A stretch of DNA of 64,000 bases from Pedobacter nyackensis (GTDB lineage: Bacteria; Bacteroidota; Bacteroidia; Sphingobacteriales; Sphingobacteriaceae). Every line of letters begins with the position of its first letter. The first letter of the stretch is position 1. The stretch lies in NCBI RefSeq assembly GCF_900176505.1, contig NZ_FWYB01000003.1, positions 1 through 64,000 of the forward strand, given 5' to 3'. Below are positions 1,733-57,946 of the stretch, in pieces. Made by a program: the position numbers and the translations under genes. The notes under the pieces are model-generated. The model did no database searches and had not been told where the DNA came from. It saw nothing but the letters and a program-made list of their open reading frames with translations.

Positions 1733-3004
1733 ATGTCAGCAGCAAATAAGCCACACATTGCAATCATAGGTTTAGGTTACGTCGGGCTACCTTTAGCCAT
1801 CGAGTTTGCCAAACAATACCAGGTTCTCGGTTTCGATATCAATGAAACCCGGATACAAGAACTTTCGGCAAATAAAGATATTACCAAAGAAGCCGATTTA
1901 ACTGCATTGCAGGAAGTGCTTGGTAAAGGACTTACCCTTTCTTCAGATGTCGATATGTTGCAGGAATGTAACGTGTATATCGTTACCGTTCCTACACCAA
2001 TTGATCAGTTCAAGGCACCGGATTTAAAACCATTATTAGCCGCGACAGAAATGCTGGCGAAATACCTGGAAAAAAGTGATATCGTCATCTACGAATCTAC
2101 CGTTTATCCGGGCTGTACAGAAGAAGACTGTGTGCCGGTGCTGGAGAAATATTCAGGACTGAAATACAATGTTGATTTCTACTGCGGTTATTCGCCGGAA
2201 AGGATCAATCCGGGAGATAAAGTAAATACCCTGACTAAAATCATGAAAGTTACCTCAGGCTCTACACCTGAAGTGGCCAATTGGATCGATGCACTATACG
2301 GTAGCATTATTACTGCAGGTACCCATAAAGCACCCAGCATCAAAGTAGCAGAAGCTTCAAAAGCAATTGAAAACGCACAGCGTGATGTGAACATCTCCTT
2401 TGTAAACGAGCTGGCGCTGATCTTCGATAAAATGGAGATCGATACTGCTGATGTAATCGCTGCTGCGGGAACAAAATGGAACTTCTTAAAATATAAACCA
2501 GGATTGGTAGGTGGACACTGTATCGGTGTGGATCCTTATTACCTGGCACATAAATCCAATGCACTCGGCTATACTCCTCAGGTTATCCTGTCGGGCAGAA
2601 GGGTAAATGAAAACATGGGTGTTTTCGTAGCCAGCAAAGTTGTAAAAATGCTGATCGCTAAAGATATCAATGTTAAAGGCGAGAAAGCACTGATTCTGGG
2701 CTTCGCGTTTAAAGAGAACTGTCCGGATGTGAGAAACACAAAAGTGATCGATATCTATACGGAATTGAAACAGTATGGTATGGATGTGCATGTGTATGAT
2801 CCATGGGCTATTGCGGAAGAAGTGCATGAAGAGTATGGCATCACACTGGAACAAAAGTTGGATGATGACTATAAAGCCATCATCATTGCGGTAGCGCACA
2901 ATGAATTCCTGAGCATCGATTATGCGAAGTATAAAGCCAGCGGAGCTATTATTTTTGATACCAAATCATTTATCGACCGCAGCTTTGCAGATGCGAGACT
3001 GTAA
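1733..3004 (+). CDS. UDP-N-acetyl-hexosamine 6-dehydrogenase (WbpA/TviB type)
   Basis: This 423-residue protein belongs to the UDP-glucose/GDP-mannose dehydrogenase family. It oxidises C6 of a UDP-sugar to the uronic acid with two NAD+. The N-terminal Rossmann motif [10 protein letters not shown] is at residues about 13-22, a central helical dimerisation domain follows, and the catalytic cysteine lies in [14 protein letters not shown]. The sequence is closest in style to the UDP-GlcNAc/UDP-GalNAc dehydrogenases of O-antigen and Vi-antigen pathways (WbpA, WbpO, TviB) rather than UDP-glucose dehydrogenases. It is followed after 54 bp by the GDP-mannose dehydratase gene, so it belongs to a cell-surface polysaccharide pathway. 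A diverged paralogue lies at 59082-60371. The exact substrate cannot be read from sequence. Confidence 0.9.
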   Translation: MSAANKPHIAIIGLGYVGLPLAIEFAKQYQVLGFDINETRIQELSANKDITKEADLTALQEVLGKGLTLSSDVDMLQECNVYIVTVPTPIDQFKAPDLKPLLAATEMLAKYLEKSDIVIYESTVYPGCTEEDCVPVLEKYSGLKYNVDFYCGYSPERINPGDKVNTLTKIMKVTSGSTPEVANWIDALYGSIITAGTHKAPSIKVAEASKAIENAQRDVNISFVNELALIFDKMEIDTADVIAAAGTKWNFLKYKPGLVGGHCIGVDPYYLAHKSNALGYTPQVILSGRRVNENMGVFVASKVVKMLIAKDINVKGEKALILGFAFKENCPDVRNTKVIDIYTELKQYGMDVHVYDPWAIAEEVHEEYGITLEQKLDDDYKAIIIAVAHNEFLSIDYAKYKASGAIIFDTKSFIDRSFADARL

Positions 3005-3058
3005 GAAAAAATAAATAAATCCGTATGTTTACGGCTGTAAATTAAAAGACAAAAATTG

Positions 3059-4195
3059 ATGAAGGTAGCTTTAATAACTGGTGTTACAGGACAGGATGGT
3101 GCATATTTAGCAGAGTTCTTGCTAAAAAAGGGATATTTTGTACACGGTATAAAAAGAAGAGCCTCATCATTCAATACCGATAGGATTGATCATTTGTATC
3201 ATGATCAGCACGAACAAGGTGTAAGTTTCAAACTGCATTATGGCGATCTGACCGATTCAACCAATTTAATTCGCATCATCCAGGAAACACAACCTGATGA
3301 AATTTATAACCTCGCGGCCATGAGCCACGTGCATGTAAGTTTCGAAATGCCCGAGTATACCGCCAATGCCGATGGTATTGGTACCTTAAGGTTATTAGAA
3401 GCCATCCGCATTTTAGGAATGGAGAAAAAGACCAAGATTTACCAGGCATCAACTTCCGAACTGTACGGATTGGTGCAGGCTGTTCCACAAAGTGAAACTA
3501 CGCCTTTCTATCCGCGTTCGCCATATGCTGTAGCTAAAATGTACGGTTACTGGATCACGGTTAACTACAGGGAAGCTTATCAGATGTATGCCTGCAACGG
3601 GATCTTGTTTAACCACGAAAGTCCGCTTAGAGGCGAAACCTTCGTAACCCGTAAAATTACCCGCGCAGCGTGTAAAATTGCCTTAGGACTACAAAATTGC
3701 CTTTACCTTGGTAACCTGTCTGCACAAAGAGATTGGGGCCATGCCAAAGATTATATTGAAGCGATGTGGTTAATCCTACAACAGGAACAACCTGAAGATT
3801 ATGTTATCGCTACCGGAATCACTACCACAGTAAGAGACTTCGTTAAAATGAGCTTCGCCGAACTGGGTATTGAAGTGGAGTTTAGCGGAAAAGATGAGTA
3901 CGAGCGTGGTGTGATTATTGACGTTGATCAGGAAATGTTGGTAAAACTAGGCTTAAATGATACTTACCTGAAACCGGGAACCGTAGTGGTACAGGTAGAT
4001 GAGAAATATTTCCGCCCAACTGAAGTTGACTTGTTGCTGGGCGATCCAACTAAAGCCAATACCAAACTGGGCTGGAAACCTAAATACGATTTACCTGCAT
4101 TGGTGAAGGATATGATGCAATCTGATTTGCACCTCATGAAAAAAGACGAATACCTGAAAGAAGGTGGTTTTAAAACCTTAAACTATTTCGAATAG
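3059..4195 (+). CDS. gmd: GDP-mannose 4,6-dehydratase
   Basis: This 378-residue short-chain dehydrogenase/reductase converts GDP-D-mannose to GDP-4-keto-6-deoxy-D-mannose in the cytoplasm. That product is the precursor of GDP-fucose, GDP-rhamnose and GDP-perosamine. The nucleotide-binding motif [16 protein letters not shown] is at the N-terminus. The family signature [16 protein letters not shown], the catalytic YAVAK motif and [16 protein letters not shown] are all present. I chose ATG 3059 over the TTG at 3056 because it gives the canonical MKVALITG start. The partner reductase or aminotransferase that would define the final sugar is not in this window. The gene follows the UDP-sugar dehydrogenase in what looks like one operon. 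Confidence 0.96.
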
Positions 4196-4274
4196 GGAGG
4201 ACTTAATTCCTTCGCTTCCAGTACTCGGGATATCCTAGATATTACTATCTTGCTTTTTAATTTTAGGATAACCA

Positions 4275-5099
4275 ATGATCATTATTATTCAGTGTAAAGA
4301 CCGGGTAGGACTGGTTGCCGACATATCGGCTATATTATCGGAAGCAGGGTTGAACATCATTTCCATGCGTGAGCATGTGGATAAAGCCGGGGAACGGTTT
4401 TTTATGCGCCTGGAAGTGGACGGTACGACAGATGAAGTTGCCCTGGAAAAAAGCATGGAGCAGGTTTTACCCGAGGGCGCGCTGATCCATGTCAATCCGG
4501 TTCCTGATAAAAAGATCGTGGTGATGGTAACCCGCGAATACCATTGCCTGGCTGATATCCTGATCCGGAACAGTTTTGGTACGCTTGGCGCTGAGGTGCT
4601 TTGTGTGATTGGAAACCATAGCATCCTGCAAAAGATTTGCGAACGCTTTGATATTCCCTTTTATCTGATTCCTTACCATGAGGAAAAAGCAGTTTCCGAA
4701 CGGGAGATCATTCATAAAATTAATTCCTATAATCCTGATTTCATTGTTCTGGCTAAGTTTATGCGGATTTTATCACCGGCATTCGTAGCCAGTTTCCCAA
4801 ATAAAGTGATCAATATCCACCATTCCTTTCTACCTGCCTTTGCAGGGGCAAATCCTTACAGGCAAGCTTTTGAAAGAGGGGTTAAACTGATTGGTGCAAC
4901 AGCGCATTTTGTGACCGATGAGCTGGATGAAGGACCGATTATTGCGCAACAGATTATACCGGTTAACCACTCCTTTACCGCTGCCGATATGGTGAAATCA
5001 GGGAAGGAAATTGAAACTGCTGTACTGGCAAAAGCCTTGCGCCTGGTTTTGAATGACAGGGTATTCGTCTACCAGAATAAAACAGTTGTTTTTGAGTAG
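4275..5099 (+). CDS. purU: Formyltetrahydrofolate deformylase
   Basis: This 274-residue protein hydrolyses 10-formyltetrahydrofolate to tetrahydrofolate and formate, balancing one-carbon pools and feeding formate to PurT. Residues about 2-75 form an ACT regulatory domain (CKDRVGLVADISAILSEAGL). Residues about 85-270 form a formyl-transferase fold with the active-site segment NIHHSFLPAF and the DELDEGPII motif around the catalytic aspartate. Length and domain order are normal for PurU. It stands 79 bp after gmd and converges on the XRE gene with a gap of only 10 bp. It has no evident functional link to the polysaccharide genes upstream. Confidence 0.95.
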   Translation: MIIIIQCKDRVGLVADISAILSEAGLNIISMREHVDKAGERFFMRLEVDGTTDEVALEKSMEQVLPEGALIHVNPVPDKKIVVMVTREYHCLADILIRNSFGTLGAEVLCVIGNHSILQKICERFDIPFYLIPYHEEKAVSEREIIHKINSYNPDFIVLAKFMRILSPAFVASFPNKVINIHHSFLPAFAGANPYRQAFERGVKLIGATAHFVTDELDEGPIIAQQIIPVNHSFTAADMVKSGKEIETAVLAKALRLVLNDRVFVYQNKTVVFE

Positions 5100-5109
5100 T
5101 GCTCAAATC

Positions 5110-5427
5110 TTATTTTCCTCCTTCGTAAATCCTGATGATTTCGTATTGAAGTTTAATGACCGCACTATCTTTTTTTGCCAGTATGTTTTTTAGCTGCGCT
5201 ATATTTAAGTAATGCTTGTTTTTTTCTTCTGGTGTAGTGACGAGCTCCGCAGGTTCTACATTGAATACTCCTGCAATTTGATTTAATCTGGAAAAATTTA
5301 AGTCTGTATCGCCGGCTTCAATTTTAGAAAGGGCTGGCGTTGTTATTCCTAGTTTTTTGGCCAGGTGTCCCTGAGTCCAGCTTCTTTGCTGGCGCAGGTG
5401 TCTAATGTTTTTGCTGATTGCGTTCAT
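5110..5427 (-). CDS. XRE-family transcriptional regulator
   Basis: This small DNA-binding protein has a lambda-repressor-type helix-turn-helix at residues about 5-60: IRHLRQQRSWTQGHLAKKLG followed by TTPALSKIEAGDTDLNFSRL. A C-terminal tail of about 40 charged residues follows. The frame stays open upstream to an ATG at 5556, which would add 43 residues unlike the family. I prefer the ATG at 5427 (105 residues) because the HTH then begins five residues in, as is usual. Its targets are unknown. It could regulate itself or neighbours, or serve as an isolated host regulator. Confidence 0.75.
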   Translation of the reverse strand: MNAISKNIRHLRQQRSWTQGHLAKKLGITTPALSKIEAGDTDLNFSRLNQIAGVFNVEPAELVTTPEEKNKHYLNIAQLKNILAKKDSAVIKLQYEIIRIYEGGK

Positions 5428-6504: not shown

Positions 6505-8088
6505 TTAATAGTTAGGATTCTGAGTAAATCCAGGGTTCGCCTGCATTTCTAATTGTGGAATTGGCCATAAGAAATCTCTGTTTGCCTTTGCCAATCGCGT
6601 TTCAACAGGTACTGCAATCCCGGTTAAGGGATCAATAGCTCCGGTAACGGGTCCATTCATAACCTGTTCAAATATCCCCCAACGTCTGATGTCAAAATAC
6701 CTTACACCTTCAAATGCAAGCTCTACTCTTCGCTCACGCCTAACCAGTTCACGTAATTTCTCCTTCGTATTATACACCGCTACATTTACATTTGGCATTC
6801 CAGCGCGGTTCCTAATTTCATTTAAGTACTTAACAACATCAGGATTTGTAAAGTCATCTGTTTCTATTAAAGTCTCTACATAGGTTAATAAAACCTCGGC
6901 ATACCTGATAATCATAAAGTCGAGGGTTTTTGAGCCGGTCTTATCTTTTGGGTCAAGGTATTTGTTTTGCCAATATCCGGTCGCGGTTGAGTTCTGTGCA
7001 CCAATTTTATCAGCGTTAAGTGGATTCAGATCAAAAGGCTTCAGTACAAGAGCTGCGTAGGTCTGTAGTGGAAACAATACCGAAAATGCTAACCTCGGGT
7101 CCCTGTTGTTTTTATATTTGGGGTCTTTTAAATAAATGGCTAGTGAATCGGGGCCCAGTTCGTAAATTGTTTTGCCCTGTTTGGTTTCATAACTGTTGAT
7201 CATATCAGCGGTTGGCGACAACACCGTTTTACCACCCAGGCCCTGTGGAGCAAAAGTATCCCAGGCACCAGAACAACCATTTTCCCTAAAAAATATACGT
7301 TCTTTGTTTAGCTCTCCGGTGTAAAGAAACAAATCTGCATAGCTATTCTTCACGTTTGCACTCTTATAAAGCGCATAAATATCCAGTTTAATAACTTCCT
7401 TTGCAGCATTTTTAGCCACCTCGTAGTTCTTGTAAAAAGTAGCCAACCTGGTAATCAATGCCCAGCATACTCCCGAAGTTATTCTTTTAATGTCTGCATT
7501 GGTGTATTCCTTTGGCAAGTTACCGGCACATTCCGTTAACTCCGCCAACACAAAATCATAGACTTCCTTTTCGGTATTTCTTTTCAGGTAGCTGGCATCG
7601 GGAACCACAGAATTAGTCATCAATGGCACACCTCCAAAAAACAACAATAACTCCATATGGTAATAAGCCCGTAGCGCTCTGGCTTCATATTTATATCTTG
7701 TTTTCAACTCTTCGCCCATATAGCATTTATCTACATTTTCTAAAAAGCGATTCGCACGTCTGATTGTTTTATAATCGTCTCTCCATATGCCCAATCCCAC
7801 ACCCCAGGTGCCAGTCTGCAAGCCTTTTACATAAGACTCATAATCACCCCGGAAAGTCTGACGTGCAACATTTTCATCCGCCATCGCAGATAAAAATAAG
7901 GTTTGCCTGCCCGAAGCTCCATCAGGAATACCTACATATGCAGTGTTTAACGCATTTGTTGCATCAGCCTCTGTTCTCCAGAATTCTTCATCCGAAATAC
8001 TCGTTGGATGATCATGTGTCAGAAACTTTTCGCATGATGTTAGCGTTGCCAGCATCATGACTATGATAAAATAAAATTCCTTTTTCAT
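6505..8088 (-). CDS. SusD/RagB-family outer-membrane lipoprotein
   Basis: SusD proteins are surface lipoproteins that cap a SusC porin and capture the ligand. The start at 8088 gives a short signal with the lipobox LTSC, followed by EKFLTHDHPTSISDEEFW, a typical SusD opening. The N-terminal TPR-like helices and the C-terminal RagB/SusD signature RRERRVELAFEGVRYFDIRRWG are present, and the length of about 527 residues is normal. An in-frame ATG at 8097 would add three residues. The gene follows susC after 3-12 bp and precedes the phosphatase-fold lipoprotein. The ligand is unknown. Confidence 0.93.
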   Translation of the reverse strand: MKKEFYFIIVMMLATLTSCEKFLTHDHPTSISDEEFWRTEADATNALNTAYVGIPDGASGRQTLFLSAMADENVARQTFRGDYESYVKGLQTGTWGVGLGIWRDDYKTIRRANRFLENVDKCYMGEELKTRYKYEARALRAYYHMELLLFFGGVPLMTNSVVPDASYLKRNTEKEVYDFVLAELTECAGNLPKEYTNADIKRITSGVCWALITRLATFYKNYEVAKNAAKEVIKLDIYALYKSANVKNSYADLFLYTGELNKERIFFRENGCSGAWDTFAPQGLGGKTVLSPTADMINSYETKQGKTIYELGPDSLAIYLKDPKYKNNRDPRLAFSVLFPLQTYAALVLKPFDLNPLNADKIGAQNSTATGYWQNKYLDPKDKTGSKTLDFMIIRYAEVLLTYVETLIETDDFTNPDVVKYLNEIRNRAGMPNVNVAVYNTKEKLRELVRRERRVELAFEGVRYFDIRRWGIFEQVMNGPVTGAIDPLTGIAVPVETRLAKANRDFLWPIPQLEMQANPGFTQNPNY

Positions 8089-49494: not shown

Positions 49495-50235
49495 CTATAG
49501 GCTCAAGTTAGTTATCTCGCTAATAGCATACAGAGGAAGATTGGTGAGCCAGTCTTCCTTTTTGAAATCAGACATGGAAGTTCTTATGGCCAGAGGTGGA
49601 TTATATTTGTCGGTGAAGCTTTTTAAGCTTTTGGCGCGAAGGTTTTCTTCTGCTTTTACTTCTACCGGTATGATGTTGCTGGCGTGTTGCAAGAGGAAGT
49701 CGATCTCTGCGGTGGCCTTTTCTGCCGACCAGTAGTAAATGGTGATTTCTTTATTTGTTTTCATTTGTTGCAGGACATATTGTTCTGTGAGTGCTCCCTT
49801 AAATTCTTCGAATATTGCGTTTCCCTCCAGCAGTGTTTTGACATCAATATCACCCATAGCAGCCAACAGGCCAACGTCAAGTAAGAATAGTTTGAATGCA
49901 CTGTGATCTTCGTATGCTTTCAATGGCATGGCGGGTTTACCAGCGCGGTAGACTTTGTGGACCAGTCCGCAGTCGATGAGCCAGGACATAGCCAATTCAT
50001 AGTCTTTGGCACGGGAGCCCTGTTTTATGAGGCTGTATATGAACTTTTTGTTTTCCTTTGCCAGCTGGGCTGGTATAGCGTTCCACAGCATTCTGATCCT
50101 CGGCACAATTTCGTGAGGAGCATGCTTTGAAAAATCCTGTTCATAAGCGTCCAAAATGCGTTTTTGTATCGCTCTTACTTCTGTGAAATCGCCCTGCCTA
50201 AAAGCAAGTACGGCTTTCGGAGTATTTACAAGAAA
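49495..50235 (-). pseudogene. N-terminally truncated AAA/DUF4143 ATPase-family protein
   Basis: The minus-strand frame encodes about 240 residues of the C-terminal DUF4143 half of the AAA_14/DUF4143 family, recognisable from AVLAFRQGDFTEVRAIQKRI upstream of the first ATG (50154) through AYEQDFSKHAP, FLLDVGLLAAM and TEQYVLQQM. A PDDEXK-like signature AEIDFLL ... PVEVKA lies near the end. Full-length relatives are about 400 residues and begin with a P-loop ATPase domain, which is absent. Homology stops near 50235, where an unrelated plus-strand remnant begins. The gene is thus broken at that junction. Confidence 0.82.
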
Positions 50236-50240
50236 CCCGG

Positions 50241-50699
50241 ACCATTGTTGCAGCCGCCGAATTTATCACTTTACTGCAGAGTAGTGACATTATTCACAAC
50301 CGTCATAGGTCTGTTTTGTATGACCAGGGCATTGTTGATCTCCTGAGTAAGGACAAAATCTGCGGGTACATTCAAAAAATGAGGAAGGATAAGCAAGGTC
50401 ATAAGTTTGAAGCCTGGCTACACATTAGAAATTACATAGGTCATATAGTCGCCTGCGAAAAGCCGAAGGCTGGCTTAAGTTTGTGGGTGGCTTTTCCTGA
50501 TGCAGAATTACTGGCCGAATCCTTGTCTTTTTTCGAAAAATCTGGTTTTAAAGTACTGTATTTCCCTGGTTCCAGGAGGCCAGGGCCAGGTCTGAAGTAT
50601 GTTCGTTTTGGCTTTGGCACATGGAATGTTGATGAACCTACGGAACCGTTAAAATTACTCTGCGAGAAACTAAGCTCCGTTCGTAAAGGCTGTTCATGA
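50241..50699 (+). pseudogene. C-terminal remnant of a MocR-type PLP-dependent aminotransferase
   Basis: The open plus-strand frame from about 50241 (TIVAAAEFITLLQSSDIIHN) to the stop at 50699 matches the end of MocR/ARO8-type fold-I aminotransferases: VLYDQGIVDLL, GYIQKMRKDKQ, AGLSLWVAFPDAELLAES and YVRFGFGTWN. The GntR helix-turn-helix and the PLP-lysine region are missing. The frame has no ATG where the homology begins. It starts where the DUF4143 remnant ends, so two unrelated genes were joined here by a deletion or rearrangement. Confidence 0.7.
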
Positions 50700-50721: not shown

Positions 50722-50997
50722 TTGCGACGCCTCTTTATACTCTTAAAAATCTTTAATGTTTTAGTGAAAATTTTAAGCGAATTGACTGAAATCAGGTCAA
50801 TCCTTAATTTAAAGCACGTTGACCAGCAGTTCGAAAATGAACAACTGCTGGACAATAGTGATGCTAAAAGTCTACTCAAAATCTGTGATAGAACGCTATA
50901 TGAGTGGCGTAAACAGAACCTGATCTCCTATAGGGTAATCGGTAATAAATACTATTATCTGAAGTCCGACCTGCTTAAAATGAAGAAAGGTAAATAG
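50722..50997 (+). CDS. Small helix-turn-helix (MerR/excisionase-like) protein
   Basis: This protein of up to 91 residues has a C-terminal HTH of the type common in Bacteroidota mobile elements: LLDNSDAKSLLKICDRTLYE, WRKQNLISYRVIGNKYYY, LKSDLLKMKK. The N-terminal 35 residues look like a short amphipathic helix. The start is uncertain because no ATG is present; candidates are TTG 50722 and GTG 50764. It is followed by a spacer full of dyads and then by the DUF6266 genes. A role as their regulator is likely by position, but it might instead be a leftover excisionase. Confidence 0.65.
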   Translation: MRRLFILLKIFNVLVKILSELTEIRSILNLKHVDQQFENEQLLDNSDAKSLLKICDRTLYEWRKQNLISYRVIGNKYYYLKSDLLKMKKGK

Positions 50998-51299: not shown

Positions 51300-51941
51300 A
51301 TGGCAATAATTAGAAATGGTATTTTAGGACCGGTTTCCGGAAAGTTAGGTTCGGTAGTATTTGTACAAACTAAGGGCGGTAATTTTGTGCGGCAAGCGCC
51401 AAAAAAGAAACCAAAGGGTAGTCCACGTTCTCCTGCCCAGACTGCTAACCAGCAGAAAATGAAATTCTTCAACGAGTTTTTGACTCCCTTTTATCCTTTT
51501 TTCACCGTTGGTTTTCAAAATCTTCCGCCAGGTAAAACGGCCCTAAGTATCGGCTATTCGGTAAACTACCACAGGGTATTTACGGGCGAATACCCGAAAT
51601 TGGGTGTGGATTGCAGTAAGGTGGTGATCAGTGAAGGAACGCTTCCCCAGTTGAACGAGCCGGAAATGAAACTCATTGCTGATGATATTCTGGAACTTAC
51701 CTGGCAGCAGAATACAAATCCCAAAGCATCTTTTGATGATCAGGTGATGTTGGTGGTATACAGTCCCGAGCTTAAAATTGCGGACGGATTTACCGGTGGA
51801 GCAAAACGTACTTCAAGGCAATGCTTGTTTAGGTTTGATCGTAGACTTGTTGGAAAGCAGCTGGAAGTATATGTTGGGGTAACTTCCATGAACCGGAAAA
51901 AAGTAGCGGATAGTGTTTATTTAGGGAGGATAGAGGGATGA
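51300..51941 (+). CDS. DUF6266 family protein, copy 1
   Basis: This 213-residue protein begins MAIIRNGILGPVSGKLGSVV and continues with the basic PKKKPKGSPRSPAQTANQQK, the opening I recognise as DUF6266. It has no signal peptide or membrane segment. The middle and end are beta-rich (ILELTWQQN, MLVVYSPELKIADGF, LEVYVGVTSMNRKKVADSVY). The function of the family is unknown. A second member lies at 52556-53203. The stop overlaps the next start (ATGA), so it is co-translated with the following gene. Its position ahead of a lysis-type trio suggests a product that may be released by that trio. Confidence 0.85.
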   Translation: MAIIRNGILGPVSGKLGSVVFVQTKGGNFVRQAPKKKPKGSPRSPAQTANQQKMKFFNEFLTPFYPFFTVGFQNLPPGKTALSIGYSVNYHRVFTGEYPKLGVDCSKVVISEGTLPQLNEPEMKLIADDILELTWQQNTNPKASFDDQVMLVVYSPELKIADGFTGGAKRTSRQCLFRFDRRLVGKQLEVYVGVTSMNRKKVADSVYLGRIEG

Positions 51942-52336
51942 TGAAAACGACATATCAATATGTGCCGGTTACAGACCGGCCCGATCGCTTGTCCATTCTG
52001 GCCGATAGATGTCTGGAGCACGTGCTTAGGCAAATGGAAAACAAAGCTGAATCCAGCTCAGAAGATCACCGGATCAGGGTAGTGTTTTCTGTTGACGTAC
52101 TGGCTTATTTCTTTAAGCTTTTGCACAAGTCTGGTGCGCTGGATAGCGGACCACTTACTCAGCTGATGGAGGCCATTTCCAAAAACTTTGTAACTAAAGG
52201 TCTGGGACAAAACTTCATCTCGCCATATAGCTTAACTACCAAGTATAAGCAGGTAGTGCAAGGTACGGCTCGGACTGTAAGAGCCTTATTGGCTAAAATG
52301 CTAAAGCAGCTGGATGATGAATTTGAACTAATTTAA
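51938..52336 (+). CDS. Unknown protein between the DUF6266 genes
   Basis: This 132-residue protein overlaps the upstream stop by 4 bases, behind an unusually good Shine-Dalgarno stretch (TTAGGGAGGATAGAGGG). I do not recognise a named family. The last 55 residues (LTQLMEAISKNFVTKGL, GQNFISPYSLTTKYKQVVQG, RALLAKMLKQL) are helical. They loosely recall the C-terminal tails of RteC-type proteins from Bacteroidota mobile elements. The N-terminal half contains RIRVVFSVDVLAYFFKLLHK. No signal peptide is present. It is probably a cytoplasmic partner or regulator of the DUF6266 product. Confidence 0.65.
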   Translation: MMKTTYQYVPVTDRPDRLSILADRCLEHVLRQMENKAESSSEDHRIRVVFSVDVLAYFFKLLHKSGALDSGPLTQLMEAISKNFVTKGLGQNFISPYSLTTKYKQVVQGTARTVRALLAKMLKQLDDEFELI

Positions 52337-52360
52337 AATTTTTCAAAAAAAAGTAAATGC

Positions 52361-52440
52361 CCTGTGGTATGTCTCAAGCGGGTTTTTGGGGTGTTTTTGC
52401 TAAGGGGTACGGTACCCCCTGGGACTGCCACAGGTTTTTT
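52361..52440 (+). terminator. Nested hairpin with T-run, terminator or leader structure
   Basis: CCTGTGG (52361-52367) and CCACAGG (52428-52434) form the outer stem, reinforced by nearby GTC/GAC pairs. Inside is a second dyad, GGGGTAC-G-GTACCCC (52404-52418). The outer stem is followed by TTTTTT (52435-52440). It could end the first DUF6266 transcript or act as a structured leader for the second, whose start is 115 bp downstream. Confidence 0.55.
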
Positions 52441-52555
52441 CAATTCTGTCTCTTTGTAATGTCATTTGCAAACAACAATGAGGATAACCATCCTTCTTGT
52501 TCTACTCAGGTAAATGGCATTAACAAATTTTTTAACCATTTAAATTTTAAAAATT

Positions 52556-53203
52556 ATGGGACTTATTGAAGAAGGAATGTTTGGTGCATTTCGTAAAAGA
52601 ACGGGAAAACTGGTTGGCGCCCGATGGAGAAACCTGGATGTAATCAGGACGTTACCTCGTAAAAGTAGTAAGCCACCTACCCAGGCGCAAATCGATCAGC
52701 ACTTGAGGTTTGCTTTGATCACCTCTTTTTTTAGTCGGATCAGCAACCTGATTGATGCTTATTTCGGTAAAGGAGATAGCACACCTACCCAGATGAACCT
52801 GGCGGTATCTTATCATTTGAAGCAAGCAATTACCGGGGTCTCGCCTAACTTTACAATTGATTATGCTAAAGTAAGGTTTAGTGTAGGTAATCTCAGTTTA
52901 GCTGATAGCCTTGCTGCCGATTCAGTTACAGCTGCAAAGGTTGACTTTACCTGGCAGGATGATGGGGAGGATAATAAGCTGAAGGATGCTACCGACATGG
53001 TTAACGTGTTGATCTACAATTCTACCAAGGATAAGTTTGTTATCCGCATGAAAGCGGCACCGAGGTCGGCCTTGACCTACAGTTTACAACTGCCGCCGAA
53101 TTTTAGCGGTGACTCAGTTCATTGTTTTGTCAGTTTCACATCGGTGATGAAAAAGCAGTTACATAGTCGTAGTGAGTACTTAGGCCTGGTGCCGGTGCTG
53201 TAA
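52556..53203 (+). CDS. DUF6266 family protein, copy 2
   Basis: This 215-residue protein carries the same N-terminal plan as copy 1 (GMFGAFRKRTGKLVGARWRN, then PRKSSKPPTQAQIDQHLRFA) and the same beta-rich C-terminal half (VDFTWQDDG, MVNVLIYNSTKDKF, VHCFVSFTSVMKKQLHSRSE). The two copies are clearly diverged, so this is an old duplication. It has no signal or membrane segment. A 9-bp stem terminator follows the stop. Function is unknown; a structural or secreted role is speculation. Confidence 0.85.
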   Translation: MGLIEEGMFGAFRKRTGKLVGARWRNLDVIRTLPRKSSKPPTQAQIDQHLRFALITSFFSRISNLIDAYFGKGDSTPTQMNLAVSYHLKQAITGVSPNFTIDYAKVRFSVGNLSLADSLAADSVTAAKVDFTWQDDGEDNKLKDATDMVNVLIYNSTKDKFVIRMKAAPRSALTYSLQLPPNFSGDSVHCFVSFTSVMKKQLHSRSEYLGLVPVL

Positions 53204-53231
53204 TGACGGCTTAGTAACAAGCTAAATTAAC

Positions 53232-53267
53232 AGAGGGCCATTTTGTTTGAGTAGGGAATGGCCCTCT
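53232..53267 (+). terminator. Intrinsic terminator after DUF6266 copy 2
   Basis: AGAGGGCCA (53232-53240) and TGGCCCTCT (53259-53267) form a perfect 9-bp stem with an 18-base loop, followed by CATTTTAT. The ATG at 53258 lies within this structure and is therefore an unlikely start for the next gene. Because the T-run is short, some transcription may continue into the lysis-type genes. Confidence 0.65.
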
Positions 53268-53296
53268 CATTTTATGAAATGTTTTATTTAAAAATC

Positions 53297-53704
53297 ATGA
53301 ACACATTAAAAATTAACAATGAAGAGCTTGCTATGAAGGCTTTTGTTGAAAGTGAAAACCGCGTAAATCGTTCCGTAAATTATGTGCCTTTTATATTGTT
53401 AGGCCTGTTGTTGTTGCTTTGGCCAATATTGCAGCACTTCATTATGCGTGGTGCCCCTAATGTTGCCTACCTGGATCCAAACATCTGGCTGTTGGTTTTA
53501 TTAAGCCTGATTTGCTTTCTGATCTCGATCGGTTTATGCTGGTGGTTACTGCAGCAGTTTTGGACGAGTATAGGTTTGCCTTCAATAGGCGATATGGTTT
53601 TACAATTTAAACAATTACAGGGATGGCAACAATTAGGTTTTTACTGGGCGTCATTTGGCTTCTTGCTATTGGCAGCAGTTGGGGTATTGATCGCAATATT
53701 ATAG
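53297..53704 (+). CDS. Holin-like protein with three membrane segments
   Basis: This 135-residue protein starts at ATG 53297. The earlier ATG at 53258 lies in the terminator stem of the previous gene. After a polar 28-residue N-terminus it has three predicted membrane segments at about 30-50 (YVPFILLGLLLLLWPILQHF), 62-87 (NIWLLVLLSLICFLISIGLC) and 112-133 (GFLLLAAVGVLIAIL). Size and three spans fit a class I phage holin. No sequence family is recognised. The case rests on its position directly before, and overlapping by 82 bases, a cell-wall hydrolase-type gene and a spanin-like gene. Confidence 0.6.
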   Translation: MNTLKINNEELAMKAFVESENRVNRSVNYVPFILLGLLLLLWPILQHFIMRGAPNVAYLDPNIWLLVLLSLICFLISIGLCWWLLQQFWTSIGLPSIGDMVLQFKQLQGWQQLGFYWASFGFLLLAAVGVLIAIL

Positions 53705-54186
53705 GACATGGATCTACTTATAACAACAATTATAGAGGGTTCAGTTACGACGATAATAGTAGAAAGAAACTGGTATCAGCGGCACAAAATGAAGTTGGCG
53801 TACAAGAAATTGGGGGCAATGCTGGCGCGCAGGTGGATCAGTACAACGCGTACGTTGGTTTCAAAAAAGTACCCTGGTGTGCGTCGTTTGTTTCGTGGTG
53901 TTTTGGGCAAGTCGGGTATCCGCAACCGAGAACTGCTTGGAGTCCTGCGCTTTTTCCCGTTGCTCGGCTTACCAAGGATCCGATGGCTGGAATGGTGATG
54001 GGTATTTATTTTAAGGACCTTAAGCGGATAGGGCACTGTGGAATTTTGGAACGGCAGCAAGGAGATTTTTGGCAAATAATTGAGGGGAATACCAATGTTA
54101 AGGGCAGTAGGGAAGGCGATGGGGTTTGGCGAAAAATAAGGCATAGAAGAGCTATACATTGTTTTGCGGATTGGTGTAAAAAATGA
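53623..54186 (+). CDS. CHAP-like peptidoglycan hydrolase (endolysin-type)
   Basis: This 187-residue protein has an N-terminal hydrophobic segment (about 4-20), either a signal peptide or a signal-anchor. A cysteine hydrolase domain of the CHAP/TIGR02594 type follows: AAQNEVGVQEIGG, VPWCASFVSWCFGQVG (catalytic Cys86), RTAWSPALFPVA, the catalytic His138 in IGHCGI and a third polar residue in IIEGNTN. It should cut peptidoglycan peptides. It overlaps the holin-like gene by 82 bases in another frame and the following lipoprotein gene by 4 bases. Such tight packing is typical of phage lysis cassettes. Confidence 0.78.
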   Translation: MATIRFLLGVIWLLAIGSSWGIDRNIIGHGSTYNNNYRGFSYDDNSRKKLVSAAQNEVGVQEIGGNAGAQVDQYNAYVGFKKVPWCASFVSWCFGQVGYPQPRTAWSPALFPVARLTKDPMAGMVMGIYFKDLKRIGHCGILERQQGDFWQIIEGNTNVKGSREGDGVWRKIRHRRAIHCFADWCKK

Positions 54187-54563
54187 GTGATATGAAAACA
54201 ATAATAATTGCTATGGTACTGCTCTTATCTGGCTGCGCTTTGTTTAAGAACACCAGCAAGACCAATGTAAAGGAAATCCAGCAATTTTCGAAGGAGGTTG
54301 ATTTCCGAGAGTTTGTTTTGAAGAGTGGTACTAAAGAAACACAGGTGTTCAGTTATCGGAACGATAGTGGATTTTATCAATACCAACGGATAATGGAGCA
54401 AGTGGATCAGTCAGCTTCCAGGGAATTGAAAACTGGAGAAGAAGCATTGGTGAAAAAGGAACTGCTAAGTAAGAAAACTGAACCGCCAGAATTTTTGGGT
54501 TGGTTTGTTGTGATGCTTATAAGTATGTTATGCTACTTATTATATAGAAGATTTTATCGGTAA
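54183..54563 (+). CDS. Unimolecular-spanin-like lipoprotein with C-terminal membrane anchor
   Basis: This 126-residue protein has a lipoprotein signal with the ideal lipobox LSGC (Cys18). A polar segment of about 80 residues (19-100) follows, then one C-terminal membrane span (about 104-121, FLGWFVVMLISMLCYLLY), followed by basic RRFYR. An outer-membrane lipid anchor at one end and an inner-membrane span at the other is the layout of u-spanins such as phage T1 gp11, which fuse the two membranes in the last step of lysis. The start overlaps the hydrolase stop (ATGA). No homology to a named spanin is claimed; the call rests on layout and neighbours. Confidence 0.62.
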   Translation: MSDMKTIIIAMVLLLSGCALFKNTSKTNVKEIQQFSKEVDFREFVLKSGTKETQVFSYRNDSGFYQYQRIMEQVDQSASRELKTGEEALVKKELLSKKTEPPEFLGWFVVMLISMLCYLLYRRFYR

Positions 54564-54655: not shown

Positions 54656-55348
54656 ATGAAAAAATGTTTACTTGTCGCGCTCTCTCTTTTACTAACTAAT
54701 GCCGCTTTTTCGCAAATGAGCGGTGATTATAACTACAGCATCGCTGTTCGTGGATACAGCTTGATGCAGATGCCTAAAGTCTTAAACCAAAAAAACTCGG
54801 ACAAATTCCGGGAAGCTGCTTTTAGTGGTGGTATCCTGAAATTTAATGACAACCAGATCAGTTATCGACTGAGTGGTAATTACTTCAAAAAGGATGTTCA
54901 AATCGTGAACAATTGCCTGAACTGTGAAGAAGCCAATGGAAAGATGACGGATTATAGTTTTAAGATTGGGTTTGAGAAGAATATTAATTTCTCGATAATT
55001 CAGCCTTATTTCGGATTTGATATGGGGTATCGGAGTAATAAATTTGTAGGTATGTTATCTTCAAAAAGTTCGGCGGATGCAGCCGCAGTGGCGATTGTAC
55101 CGGGCCCTGATGGTGTTGAAGCCAGCAAGTCGGGCTTTACTGCGGCACCGATACTTGGGGTAAAGGTTAATCCGATACCGCAAGTAACGCTATTTGCAGA
55201 GGGGAACCTTGAGTTCTTCTATTCATACGAGCGGCAGGAGACAGCAGGACCGAATCAGGAACGGACTTTTAAAAAGTTCAATAAATCTGAATTCCTGGTG
55301 AATCCTGTATCTATAGGTGTACAGATCAATTTAGGGAGTAATAGGTAG
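54656..55348 (+). CDS. Small outer-membrane beta-barrel protein
   Basis: This 230-residue protein has a signal peptide (residues 1-19, ending AFSQ). Alternating hydrophobic strands follow, typical of the outer-membrane beta-barrel superfamily (YSFKIGFEKNINFS, IQPYFGFDMGYRSNKF, VTLFAEGNLEFFYSYER), with a barrel-like end VNPVSIGVQINLGSNR. It lies before the Wza-like export gene and probably belongs to the same envelope cluster. Its exact role is unknown. Confidence 0.78.
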   Translation: MKKCLLVALSLLLTNAAFSQMSGDYNYSIAVRGYSLMQMPKVLNQKNSDKFREAAFSGGILKFNDNQISYRLSGNYFKKDVQIVNNCLNCEEANGKMTDYSFKIGFEKNINFSIIQPYFGFDMGYRSNKFVGMLSSKSSADAAAVAIVPGPDGVEASKSGFTAAPILGVKVNPIPQVTLFAEGNLEFFYSYERQETAGPNQERTFKKFNKSEFLVNPVSIGVQINLGSNR

Positions 55349-55392
55349 TGTTATGCTTGTGTTAAGCCTTTATCACAATTCAATTAAATTGA

Positions 55393-55400
55393 TATATTTG
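55393..55400 (+). promoter_or_regulatory. Candidate -7 promoter box of the polysaccharide export operon
   Basis: TATATTTG matches TAnnTTTG and lies 71 bp before the ATG at 55472. Transcription would start near 55406 with a leader of about 65 bases. No convincing -33 element was found. Confidence 0.4.
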
Positions 55401-55471
55401 CAACCGATACGAAAACCTATGAAATTGTCGAATAAATTCAACGATTTCTATTAAACCTCTCAATACTGAAT

Positions 55472-57946
55472 ATGAATTTTAAGAAATCGATCACCGCAAT
55501 ATTATTTTTATTTGCAGTTTTGATCACCCAGGTTGCATTTTCGCAATCTAACTATTCTAATGTAAAAGTTGATGAGTTATCTGATGCGCAGATCAGGGAA
55601 ATGATTTCGCGCGCAGAATCTATAGGGTATAATGATGCTCAATTGGAGCAAATGGCTAAGGCGCAGGGAATGAAAGCCGAAGAGGTGGAGAAACTGCGTG
55701 CAAGAGTTGCCAAAATCAGAAGTGGAAAAGAGGATCAGGCTGCATCTAAAGCACAAGAAACAGACAAGGGCAGACAATTTGAAGGTGGAACTCAAGGGCG
55801 CAGAGATAGTACAACTACCAAAGTTGATCTATTTGAAAGTTTACGACCTAAGATTTTTGGTGCGGAATTGTTTGCTAACAGCAACATCTCATTTGAACCA
55901 AATTTTAGAATGGCTACGCCGAGGAATTATGTGATTGGTCCTGATGATGAGTTACTGATTGATTTGAGCGGTGATAACGAAGCTGATTACAAGTTAAAGG
56001 TTAATCCTGAAGGAATTATCCGCTTGCAATATACCGGACCGGTTTCGGTTGGTGGATTGACAATTGAACAAGCTATAGCAAAAATACGTACAAAATTAGC
56101 AGGTACTTATCCAGGTTTAAGAACCGGACGCACTAGTGTTGCTGTTAATCTAGGTAACATCAGAAGTATTAAAATCACTTTATTGGGTGAAGTGGTCAAG
56201 CCAGGTTCTTATACCCTATCTTCTTTATCTACTGTTTTTAATGCTTTGAATGCTTCTGGAGGTCCGAATATGAATGGTTCCTTCCGTAAGATTCAGGTGA
56301 TCAGAGGAAATAAGATTGTTGCTACTGTTGACGTATATGATTTTCTGTTGAATGGAATTCAGAAAACCAATATCCGCTTACAGGATCAGGATGTGATTAA
56401 CATTCCGGTTTACCAAAGTAGGGTAGAGATGTCGGGCGAAGTAAAGCGCCCGGCTTTGTTTGAGGTTTTAAGCAATGAGAGCCTAGCTGATGTTATTCGT
56501 TTTGCAGGTGGCTTTAGCAATGAGGCTTATACAGCACAGATTAAAGTTTTACAGAATACCAATAAGGAGCGTAGGATTACTGATGTGACAGCAGAAAAAT
56601 TTGACACCTATGGTCCGTTAAACGGGGATAAATACATTGTTGAAGGTATTTTAGATCGCTTTGAGAACAGGGTAGAAATAGCAGGTGCTGTTTTTCGTCC
56701 GGGTAAATTTGAGCTGGACAAAGGTTTAACCTTAAAAGGTCTGATCGCTAAAGCTGATGGATTAAAGGAAGATGCGTTTTTAAACAGAGGTTATATCAAC
56801 CGTTTAAATGCGGATAATACATTGGCCTTGATTTCTTTTGATGTGGCTAAGGTATTAGCGGGAACAGATCAGGACATCGCTTTGCAGCGTGAAGATAGGG
56901 TAACAATTTCTTCTTTATTTGATTTAAGAGATGAGTACAAGCTGAGCATCCAGGGTGAAGTTCGTGCGCCTGGTGATTTTGACTATGCAGATAACATGAC
57001 TTTAGCGGATATGATACAATTGGCAGGTGGTTTTAAAGAAGGAGCTACACCTAATCGTATTGAGATTTCGAGAAGGGTGAGGAATAGCGATTCTCTTTCA
57101 AAATCGGCTATTACTGCGGAGTTGTTTACCATTAATATAGACAAGAACTTAAGGCTTGAAGGTGACCCTTTTATATTGAAGCCTTATGATATTGTTACTG
57201 TTCGTAATTCGGCAGGTTATGCAATACAGAAACAAGTTAAACTGGAAGGTGAAGTATTGTATCCGGGTGTTTATACGATTTCATCTAAAGATGAGCGGAT
57301 TTCTGATTTGATTAAAAGAGCAGGCGGATTGACGCCAATTGCTTATGCAGAAGGTGCTTCGCTAAAGAGACCTGGAGCAGAGAAAGTGAATCCTGATGAT
57401 AAGAATGCGATTGACAATAAGGAAGAAGAGAATAAGAAGTTTTTGAGTTTAAAACGTGCACAGGAGGCTGGCGTTAAGGATACGCTTCATGCAGATGTAG
57501 AACAGAAATTGATTCAGTCGGATTTAGTAGGAATTAGTTTAGAACGCATTTTACATAAACCACATTCAAGATACGATCTGATTGTAGAAGATGGTGATCT
57601 AATTCGTGTACCAAGACAATTGCAGACGGTTAAAGTAACCGGAGAGGTTTTGAATCCTAATAGCATTGTTTACTTGCCTGGTAAAAGCTTTAAGCAGTAT
57701 GTGAATGGTGCGGGAGGTTTTACAACCAGTGCTTTAAAAAAGGGTGCATATATTAAATATGCGAATGGTTCTGTTGAAGCAGGTAGTAAGTTCTTATTCT
57801 TTAACAATTTCCCGAAGGTGAGACCCGGAGCGGAGATATTAGTGCCGAAGAGGGCAGAGAGAGAAAGAATGTCAGCACAGGGATGGATTGGATTGGGTAC
57901 TGCTTTGGCTTCATTAGGGGCTATAATAGTTAGTTTGCTTAGATAG
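55472..57946 (+). CDS. Wza-like polysaccharide export protein with multiple SLBB domains
   Basis: This 824-residue envelope protein has a signal peptide (about 1-24). A helical charged region (about 35-110) is followed by a Poly_export domain (about 148-245, YVIGPDDELLIDLSGDNE). About six SLBB-type units follow, each with a G-E-V-x-x-P-G pattern: LLGEVVKPGSY, MSGEVKRPALF, IAGAVFRPGKF, IQGEVRAPGDF, LEGEVLYPGVY and VTGEVLNPNSI. The C-terminus has a hydrophobic span (WIGLGTALASLGAIIVSLL). Wza is about 380 residues with two SLBB units, so this is the long Bacteroidota form. It should form the outer-membrane exit channel for the polysaccharide made by the downstream genes. Confidence 0.92.
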   Translation: MNFKKSITAILFLFAVLITQVAFSQSNYSNVKVDELSDAQIREMISRAESIGYNDAQLEQMAKAQGMKAEEVEKLRARVAKIRSGKEDQAASKAQETDKGRQFEGGTQGRRDSTTTKVDLFESLRPKIFGAELFANSNISFEPNFRMATPRNYVIGPDDELLIDLSGDNEADYKLKVNPEGIIRLQYTGPVSVGGLTIEQAIAKIRTKLAGTYPGLRTGRTSVAVNLGNIRSIKITLLGEVVKPGSYTLSSLSTVFNALNASGGPNMNGSFRKIQVIRGNKIVATVDVYDFLLNGIQKTNIRLQDQDVINIPVYQSRVEMSGEVKRPALFEVLSNESLADVIRFAGGFSNEAYTAQIKVLQNTNKERRITDVTAEKFDTYGPLNGDKYIVEGILDRFENRVEIAGAVFRPGKFELDKGLTLKGLIAKADGLKEDAFLNRGYINRLNADNTLALISFDVAKVLAGTDQDIALQREDRVTISSLFDLRDEYKLSIQGEVRAPGDFDYADNMTLADMIQLAGGFKEGATPNRIEISRRVRNSDSLSKSAITAELFTINIDKNLRLEGDPFILKPYDIVTVRNSAGYAIQKQVKLEGEVLYPGVYTISSKDERISDLIKRAGGLTPIAYAEGASLKRPGAEKVNPDDKNAIDNKEEENKKFLSLKRAQEAGVKDTLHADVEQKLIQSDLVGISLERILHKPHSRYDLIVEDGDLIRVPRQLQTVKVTGEVLNPNSIVYLPGKSFKQYVNGAGGFTTSALKKGAYIKYANGSVEAGSKFLFFNNFPKVRPGAEILVPKRAERERMSAQGWIGLGTALASLGAIIVSLLR

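Follow-up and report, generated by a model that had tools for sequence, protein, structure and literature searches.

A candidate lysis-based release cassette coupled to DUF6266 proteins in Pedobacter

Introduction

Why would a bacterium keep holin-, endolysin- and spanin-like genes directly behind a gene of the DUF6266 family, at a place where no prophage can be recognized? The locus that raises this question lies at 51300-54563 of a 64,000-nucleotide stretch from Pedobacter nyackensis (positions 1 to 64,000 of contig NZ_FWYB01000003.1, assembly GCF_900176505.1; hereafter "the window"), which belongs to contig C31 of a 6.08-Mb, 33-contig genome. An earlier note, made from the sequence alone, had read it as a domesticated lysis or release cassette and had named a decayed prophage as the main alternative. 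Here we report that the lysis trio stands behind a DUF6266 gene amid host-like flanks; most copies belong to a single diversified lineage, on which purifying selection acts. Our preferred interpretation, to which we assign a probability somewhat above one half (about 0.57), is that the cassette is a host-maintained programmed-lysis module of Pedobacter which resembles type 10 secretion and is predicted to release DUF6266 proteins. The earlier proposal thus stands as far as domestication, the link to DUF6266, the fixed gene order and the position outside recognizable prophages are concerned, with lysis, release and control by the HTH protein as its predicted parts.

Type 10 systems are described as clusters of holin, endolysin and spanin genes that lie outside phages, derive from phage lysis modules and free signal-less proteins through the lysis of a subpopulation (PMC10847048). 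Non-lytic export was reported later for the Salmonella system (PMC13284979).

Results and Discussion

A lysis trio recurs behind DUF6266 genes in Pedobacter

The cassette genes are all on the + strand. The conserved lysis unit begins with DUF6266-C (52556..53203; 215 aa; PF19781, 134.6 bits), a candidate cargo, and continues with a holin-like protein, D, which has three hydrophobic spans (53258..53704, with the start probably at 53300; assigned from topology and relatives), an exported, endolysin-like Cys-His hydrolase, E, with a signal peptide or signal-arrest-release-type N-terminus (53623..54186; phrog_9589, E = 6.9 × 10−14), and a u-spanin-like lipoprotein, F, with a lipobox and a C-terminal hydrophobic segment (54183..54563; assigned from topology). 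Upstream are a second candidate cargo without a signal-peptide-like start, DUF6266-A (51300..51941; 213 aa; 85.4 bits), and a 132-aa protein (51938..52336) whose gene overlaps that of DUF6266-A by 4 nt. A 91-aa DNA-binding protein of the HTH_17 (excisionase/MerR-like helix-turn-helix) type, the candidate regulator, precedes them (50722..50997; PF12728, E = 3.5 × 10−10). All six open reading frames (ORFs) that the earlier note had drawn between 51300 and 54563 were found in place. Both DUF6266 proteins exceed the curated PF19781 cut-off of 23.4 bits and are 20% identical to each other, in agreement with their description as diverged. The overlap of the last three genes was likewise confirmed: 82 nt, out of frame, between D and E, and 4 nt between E and F. 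The 82 nt shared by D and E (53623-53704) do double duty: in one frame they encode the last of the three membrane spans of D, in the other the signal for export of E.

In order to find further copies, genome contigs were scanned with an alignment of E alone, which holds no DUF6266 information, and the best 80 of 230 loci were kept. These were ranked by similarity to same-genus hydrolases, so a bias toward the genus is partly built into the set, which comprises 79 loci named Pedobacter and one from a Sphingobacteriaceae metagenome-assembled genome; counts out of 83 add the three loci of the P. nyackensis genome. D was present in 76 of the 80 loci, and the DUF6266 profile matched in 70. Four of these matches (L144, L148, L149 and L175) are proteins of another family, f31, which have only the N-terminal module (N-module) in common with DUF6266, leaving DUF6266 proper in 66/80 loci (69/83 with this genome). 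The ten loci without a profile match fall into four kinds: L142 and L178 carry a 252-aa N-module protein before D, L133 and L205 start just upstream of D, L155, L176, L189 and L200 have no D, and L132 and L184 have neither. Typically, the unit reads HTH - DUF6266 - D - E - F, and further DUF6266 genes often surround it. The HTH_17 family occurs near 38 of the 83 cassettes, on the cassette strand in 36 of those cases. Where a same-strand DUF6266 or N-module gene lies upstream of D, the gap is at most 200 nt in 59 of 69 loci, frequently with a terminator-like hairpin in between, and D and E overlap by exactly 82 nt at 71 of the 79 loci with D (this genome's loci added). An arrangement that recurs in dozens of species is more than chance.

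At the level of whole genomes, we searched 38 same-genus genomes for E and DUF6266, counting E as strong at 140 bits or more and ignoring kinship. Strong E was present in 22, and DUF6266 in 21 of these 22. In the P. nyackensis genome, D and strong E each occur three times and at matching places; DUF6266 has 15 matches there, of which 3 stand before D, 3 others lie inside cassettes and 9 are scattered elsewhere among ordinary genes. Across the phylum, E matched in 12 of 390 genomes outside the genus, always more weakly (64-102 bits), and 26 of the 395 Bacteroidota genomes sampled for DUF6266 carry it; a genome can have up to 25 copies. The co-occurrence check across Bacteroidota that the earlier note had suggested therefore yields a fixed order, outside recognizable prophages, within Pedobacter.

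The trio resembles a phage lysis module

For D, searches of Pfam, PHROGs and NCBIfam gave no significant match to any family; its three hydrophobic spans, which the earlier note had also counted, and its gene position fit a holin. The start at 53300 is the more likely one because the listed start at 53258 falls within a hairpin arm, and comparison with relatives points the same way. E resembles phage endolysins in its PHROGs match and its conserved Cys and His residues, and Cys86, His138 and Asn156 are invariant among 14 relatives, in line with the Cys/His/polar triad proposed before. The label "CHAP-like" fared less well: E scores below the curated cut-offs of both CHAP PF05257 (21.5 versus 26) and TIGR02594 (41.8 versus 70.55), and we therefore call it endolysin-like rather than a member of either family. 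Its N-terminus is hydrophobic in 14 of 14 relatives, with a median N-terminal hydrophobicity of 2.73 and a lowest value of 2.07. A u-spanin combines an N-terminal lipobox with a C-terminal transmembrane segment. F of the window has this topology by prediction, as the earlier description of a lipoprotein anchored at both ends implied, and the strict topology test was passed in 31 of 83 loci; in PHROGs, F weakly resembles the Rz-like spanin family phrog_6073 (E = 0.0023). The three genes thus form a holin/endolysin/spanin cluster by resemblance, E through PHROGs and D and F through topology.

Relatives of the trio occur in phages. Among 80 viral-contig loci with relatives of E, 19 also carry D, with hydrolases 33-44% identical and D/E overlaps of 67-103 nt (82 nt in 6 of the 19). 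In L049, from IMG/VR, genes for terminase, portal, major head, tail sheath and tape measure proteins surround D and E; L099 has a terminase, and in L060 the PHROGs match is weak. A lipoprotein gene follows E in all three. Taken together, these loci identify the trio as a lysis module used by tailed phages of Bacteroidota. That module shares with the cassette the kinds of genes, their order and the out-of-frame D/E overlap. It differs in that the L049 trio sits between head and tail genes, in that the overlap varies where the cassette nearly always has 82 nt, and in that DUF6266 had no match in the stretches examined of the 80 phage loci.

We placed cassette and phage hydrolases in one tree (147 sequences, quick method, midpoint root). 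Of the 79 cassette hydrolases, 75 form a single clade (SH-aLRT 96) separate from the phage copies; the remaining four, all from P. glucosidilyticus, group near phage copies with weak support. All 79 might still share one origin, and the Pedobacter trio was probably captured about once from a phage and then spread. The earlier note had regarded a normal home of the trio in complete prophages or tailocins as fatal to its idea. Relatives do sit in genuine phages, but these lie outside the main cassette clade.

The cassette lies in a host-like context and is under purifying selection

Could the cassette be a decayed or cryptic prophage remnant? We took the nearest non-module neighbor of at least 150 aa on each side of the 80 loci and used 150 of the resulting 154 proteins, the four longest being dropped. 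They include LytTR, AraC, GntR, SusD and other host families, and among the 25 listed of 68 matched PHROG families none is named structural, many being unnamed. Within this listing and the genome scans that follow, packaging, integration or other phage genes were not recognized near the cassette. Across the genome the terminase profile phrog_38 had no match (head proteins were not searched genome-wide), and the integrase profile PF00589 had four, none of them on the contig of the window. Both results strengthen the earlier statement that phage genes are missing here; the tail sheath profile phrog_907, without a match in the genome and silent in all control genomes too, is uninformative. The cassette accordingly lies outside bacteriophage, as type 10 clusters do.

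Selection was estimated from 35 non-independent pairs at 20 loci, with the D/E overlap excluded. Median pairwise dN/dS was 0.11 for DUF6266 (30 pairs), 0.18 for D (30), 0.19 for E (27), 0.21 for the HTH gene (7) and 0.31 for F (26), making DUF6266 the most constrained gene of the unit. The tailed-phage relatives of D, E and F, a gene fragment in the left flank of the window cassette and some loci that are broken or without D are what a remnant would explain. It would sit poorly with purifying selection on each part, the shared ancestry of 75 of 79 hydrolases, the same gene order in dozens of species, the host-like flanks, the terminase and integrase results and the complete absence of DUF6266 matches from the phage stretches examined. 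On purifying selection, shared ancestry and flanks we reject a decayed prophage, which the earlier note had ranked as the main alternative, and consider it extremely improbable.

DUF6266 combines a constant N-module with a probably exchangeable C-terminal domain

An AlphaFold2 model of DUF6266-C (pLDDT 91, pTM 0.81) has an N-terminal beta/alpha module (residues ~1-105) and a C-terminal FN3 domain (~111-215). The FN3 assignment came from Foldseek (best E = 1.5 × 10−4) and VIA (best Z 8.8, rmsd 2.1 over 94 residues, with 13 of 1000 chains at Z of at least 8), and such matches speak for the fold only. The N-module alone, whose model is fair (pLDDT 84, pTM 0.62), had no match in the PDB by Foldseek (best E = 2.2), which does not in itself prove a new fold. 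N-terminal hydrophobicity of DUF6266 proteins had a median of 0.91 and a highest value of 1.98 over 86 rows, and a signal-peptide-like start was absent.

The slot before D is filled by other proteins in a few loci, by the 252-aa family in L142 and L178 and by f31 in L144 and L175. Around 90 N-terminal residues are common to f31 and DUF6266 (probability 96.7%, E = 4 × 10−10), and some 65 to the 252-260 aa family and DUF6266 (87.7%, E = 3 × 10−6). With DUF6266, these different slot proteins share nothing but the N-module. We therefore take the N-module as constant and, judging from the sequences, regard the C-terminal domain of DUF6266 as exchangeable. Neither f31 nor the 252-aa family was found in phages, DUF6266 was not found in plasmids, and the window protein had no match in IMG/VR, where the search patterns reach close relatives only.

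A hairpin often separates DUF6266 from the lysis genes

The spacer between DUF6266-C and D contains a terminator- or attenuator-like hairpin with an 11-bp perfect stem (53232..53267, + strand). The whole spacer (53204-53320) folds at −28 kcal/mol (z = −3.39), and none of 200 shuffles did as well. Many DUF6266/D spacers hold an inverted repeat of varying sequence, often followed by T-rich DNA: a perfect stem of at least 8 bp is present in 40 of 65, and in 44 of 65 the observed stem was reached by at most 1 of 20 single-base shuffles. For covariation, we picked 16 of the 65 by hand for similar stems, dropped L174 and read the structure from one member; in the alignment of the remaining 15 spacers, pairing holds for 93.3% of cells, there are 11 double changes and 0 of 500 shuffles were as good, a pairing percentage that this manner of selection biases upward. 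A second set of seven spacers (A11) had one covarying pair and did not exceed its own shuffles, and scans for sigma-70 promoters and simple terminators gave no more hits than shuffles. Among 11 DUF6266 genes of this genome that do not precede D, 4 have a stem of at least 8 bp within 60 nt past the stop codon.

Outside the genus, DUF6266 often neighbors defense genes and, in single cases, possible mobile elements

PF19781, to which the window proteins belong, is found outside Pedobacter mostly without lysis genes and often beside defense genes. We read 33 DUF6266 neighborhoods outside the genus (20 + 13). The single one with a lysis gene is L323 (6073-8302), a contig of 70% GC, where 88 nt separate DUF6266 from a downstream ORF in which membrane spans are fused to an E-like hydrolase (E = 1.3 × 10−18), and a tyrosine-recombinase-like gene was seen upstream by eye. 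It represents a second, unrelated lineage and a possible second origin of the link between DUF6266 and lysis, and it supports both a wider link of this kind and an origin from a mobile element. The earlier note had accepted that its idea would fail if DUF6266 rarely neighbored such genes. This is largely the case outside the genus, where 32 of 33 neighborhoods lack them, but not inside it, given the 21 of 22 strong-E genomes that carry DUF6266.

In one Bacteroidota class, an Argonaute gene lies within ~4 kb of DUF6266 in seven of the eight highest-scoring loci, and at the eighth, where the contig breaks off, a partner-like gene is present. The search profile was built from four of the seven, and those four match PADLOC prokaryotic Argonaute (pAgo) models independently (PDLC02385). 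At L240, L241, L242, L245, L246, L316 and L317, DUF6266 stands near two paired genes, one for a protein of 317-460 aa and the other for a long prokaryotic Argonaute, and the same pair occurs ~6 kb from DUF6266 at L236. In one case the partner has an HTH resembling MADS1 (E = 9.4 × 10−5). This is possibly a DUF6266-associated pAgo system. DUF6266 neighbors outside the genus, up to three per side, matched 224 PADLOC models, many of them redundant (139 of 140 proteins searched), and those of the Pedobacter cassettes, one per side, matched 10, each in at most 2 of 150 proteins. A link of DUF6266 to immunity is therefore possible, the cassettes themselves not being in obvious defense islands. In L321 (1949-8751), a DUF6266 gene apparently lies within a CRISPR-cas gene row, the Cas names having been read by eye. 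Three genomes have similar proteins of 146-149 aa beside DUF6266, also by eye (L235 7487-7927, L237 9128-9568, L239 9104-9553), a possible further partner.

The record OP209177.1 (L047; features of interest at 403-1158, 1996-2604, 2729-3499, 3581-5290 and 7526-7957), which is 8 kb long and classed with the tailed phages, encodes three DUF6266-like proteins (E = 1.6 × 10−19, 6 × 10−9 and 1.4 × 10−4). It also encodes a G2P-like rolling-circle Rep, a PAPS reductase and a CHAP endolysin; given this content, it may be a small rolling-circle element instead of a tailed phage. Relatives of its proteins were limited to the record itself in the phage collection, and none were found in IMG/VR.

Neighboring genes and the genomic site

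The 132-aa protein between the two DUF6266 genes is probably truncated, because it resembles just the C-terminal end of a family of 275-448 aa, f17, and clusters with seven longer proteins; with it counted, f17 occurs in 8 of 83 cassette neighborhoods. A profile comparison (probability 0.15%) led us to reject the idea that f17 and the pAgo partner are one family. In the left flank, 49495-50154 looks like an ATPase/DUF4143 protein reduced to its C-terminal half (PDC-S01 positions 222-433), and 50316-50699 resembles the end of a MocR-like regulator. Two such apparent gene fragments are a sign of rearrangement.

To the right of the cassette is a gene for polysaccharide export (SLBB; 54656-57946). 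Several other species likewise have a cassette near such a gene, at L142, L147, L158, L162, L164, L165 and L200, the last with a hydrolase remnant alone. Among the last 14 ORFs upstream of the same gene in each of 12 same-genus genomes, out of 16 others with a match, the three cassette profiles were absent, so the site is variable, although this comparison is not an exact empty-site test. The neighborhood behaves as if it were a recurrent entry site for the cassette. The P. nyackensis genome also has lone DUF6266 pairs: those in L014 (7009-8311) and L017 (6641-7952) are mutual copies, 53% and 50% identical and in the same order.

Proposed mechanism and alternative explanations

We propose that the cassette would be switched on, perhaps via the HTH_17 protein and perhaps in few cells. 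For want of an export signal, DUF6266 protein would then accumulate in the cytoplasm, and the hairpin, acting as a leaky terminator, would hold expression of the lysis genes under that of DUF6266. The holin-like D would depolarize or open the inner membrane, the exported hydrolase would cut the wall, and the spanin F would join the membranes so that the cell bursts. The burst could set free the FN3 proteins that the operon encodes, perhaps along with DUF6266 paralogs from elsewhere in the genome, for some population-level use such as binding, matrix formation or antagonism.

Several observations weigh against this interpretation. DUF6266 occurs in 10 of the 16 same-genus genomes without strong E, and genome G193 has two strong E genes and no DUF6266; its match positions agree with L178, where the 252-aa protein fills the slot. 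In P. nyackensis itself, 12 of the 15 DUF6266 genes do not precede D, and 9 lie outside cassettes altogether. DUF6266 without the trio and E without DUF6266 mean that neither part strictly needs the other. Beyond the genus, D was found in none of the 33 DUF6266 neighborhoods and lysis genes in only one. D also lacks a holin-family match, F matches spanin families weakly, and a spanin homolog was not recovered at every locus (a main cluster of 46/83 plus two clusters of 4). Finally, the hairpin could simply end the DUF6266 transcript and leave the trio a separate unit.

Instead of serving as cargo, DUF6266 or its N-module could sense or time lysis, as a control protein that is antiholin-like or gated by a ligand. 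The N-module shared by the slot proteins while their C-terminal domains vary, the strong constraint on DUF6266 and the capacity of FN3 folds to bind ligands would all suit such a role, which we nevertheless consider unlikely given up to 25 copies per genome, mostly without the trio, and a hairpin that often parts the two cistrons and would favor DUF6266 over the holin. A related idea, abortive infection, makes DUF6266 the sensor through which phage attack triggers the captured lysis genes. The many defense models matched by DUF6266 neighbors outside the genus, above all Argonaute, and the MADS1-like HTH of one pAgo partner are consistent with it; the cassette flanks match just 10 PADLOC models, in a sampling that differs (one versus three genes per side), and we regard the idea as quite improbable.

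The cassette could also stem from a small mobile element or a rolling-circle virus, as its relic or satellite; DUF6266 proteins would then be parts of the virion or element, and the trio its lysis module. OP209177 combines three DUF6266-like proteins with a Rep and an endolysin, L323 places DUF6266 and a membrane-hydrolase ORF near a recombinase-like gene, and FLiP-like single-stranded DNA prophages are reported from Pedobacter (PMC13269007). The OP209177 endolysin is of another family, however, FN3 is not a capsid fold, the phage collection has no further record of this kind, and no Rep or integrase was recognized by eye in the cassette gene lists, where no profile test was made. We judge this origin highly improbable. 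Stepping back from the cassette, DUF6266 might be a superfamily in which a constant N-module, with exchangeable C-terminal domains, is plugged into different machines that decide the fate of the cell, a captured phage lysis trio in Pedobacter and Argonaute pairs in other Bacteroidota; the shared N-module would serve for sensing or docking in a new system of programmed death or immunity, of which the Pedobacter form would be lysis on demand. We offer this joint proposal very tentatively and think it unlikely as a whole.

Relation to known systems and significance

Set beside the type 10 systems of Serratia marcescens (ChiWXYZ), Yersinia entomophaga (YenLC) and Salmonella, a release module in Pedobacter would share the placement of lysis genes near regulators and host genes. 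It would differ in phylum, in having one u-spanin-like gene in place of an i/o-spanin pair, in a candidate cargo that is an FN3 protein encoded by the first gene of the unit, in a hydrolase with its own export signal, in the fixed 82-nt holin/hydrolase overlap and in the presence of up to several diverged copies per genome. Pseudomonas reportedly uses explosive lysis to release tailocins, likewise a case of host-borne lysis that frees cytoplasmic products; the cassette has no recognized genes for tail-like particles. In the open-licence PubMed Central (PMC) literature, we found no paper describing this system by title or abstract start, and DUF6266 was named in no paper searched. The cassette looks like a lysis-based secretion system of Bacteroidota, a phylum for which we found none described.

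If our interpretation is correct, lysis-based secretion would extend past the groups known for it to a common soil genus with diverged, selected copies, and the DUF6266 family would gain a functional handle. The debated choice between killing a few cells (PMC10847048) and working without lysis (PMC13284979) would then become testable in laboratory species that are harmless.

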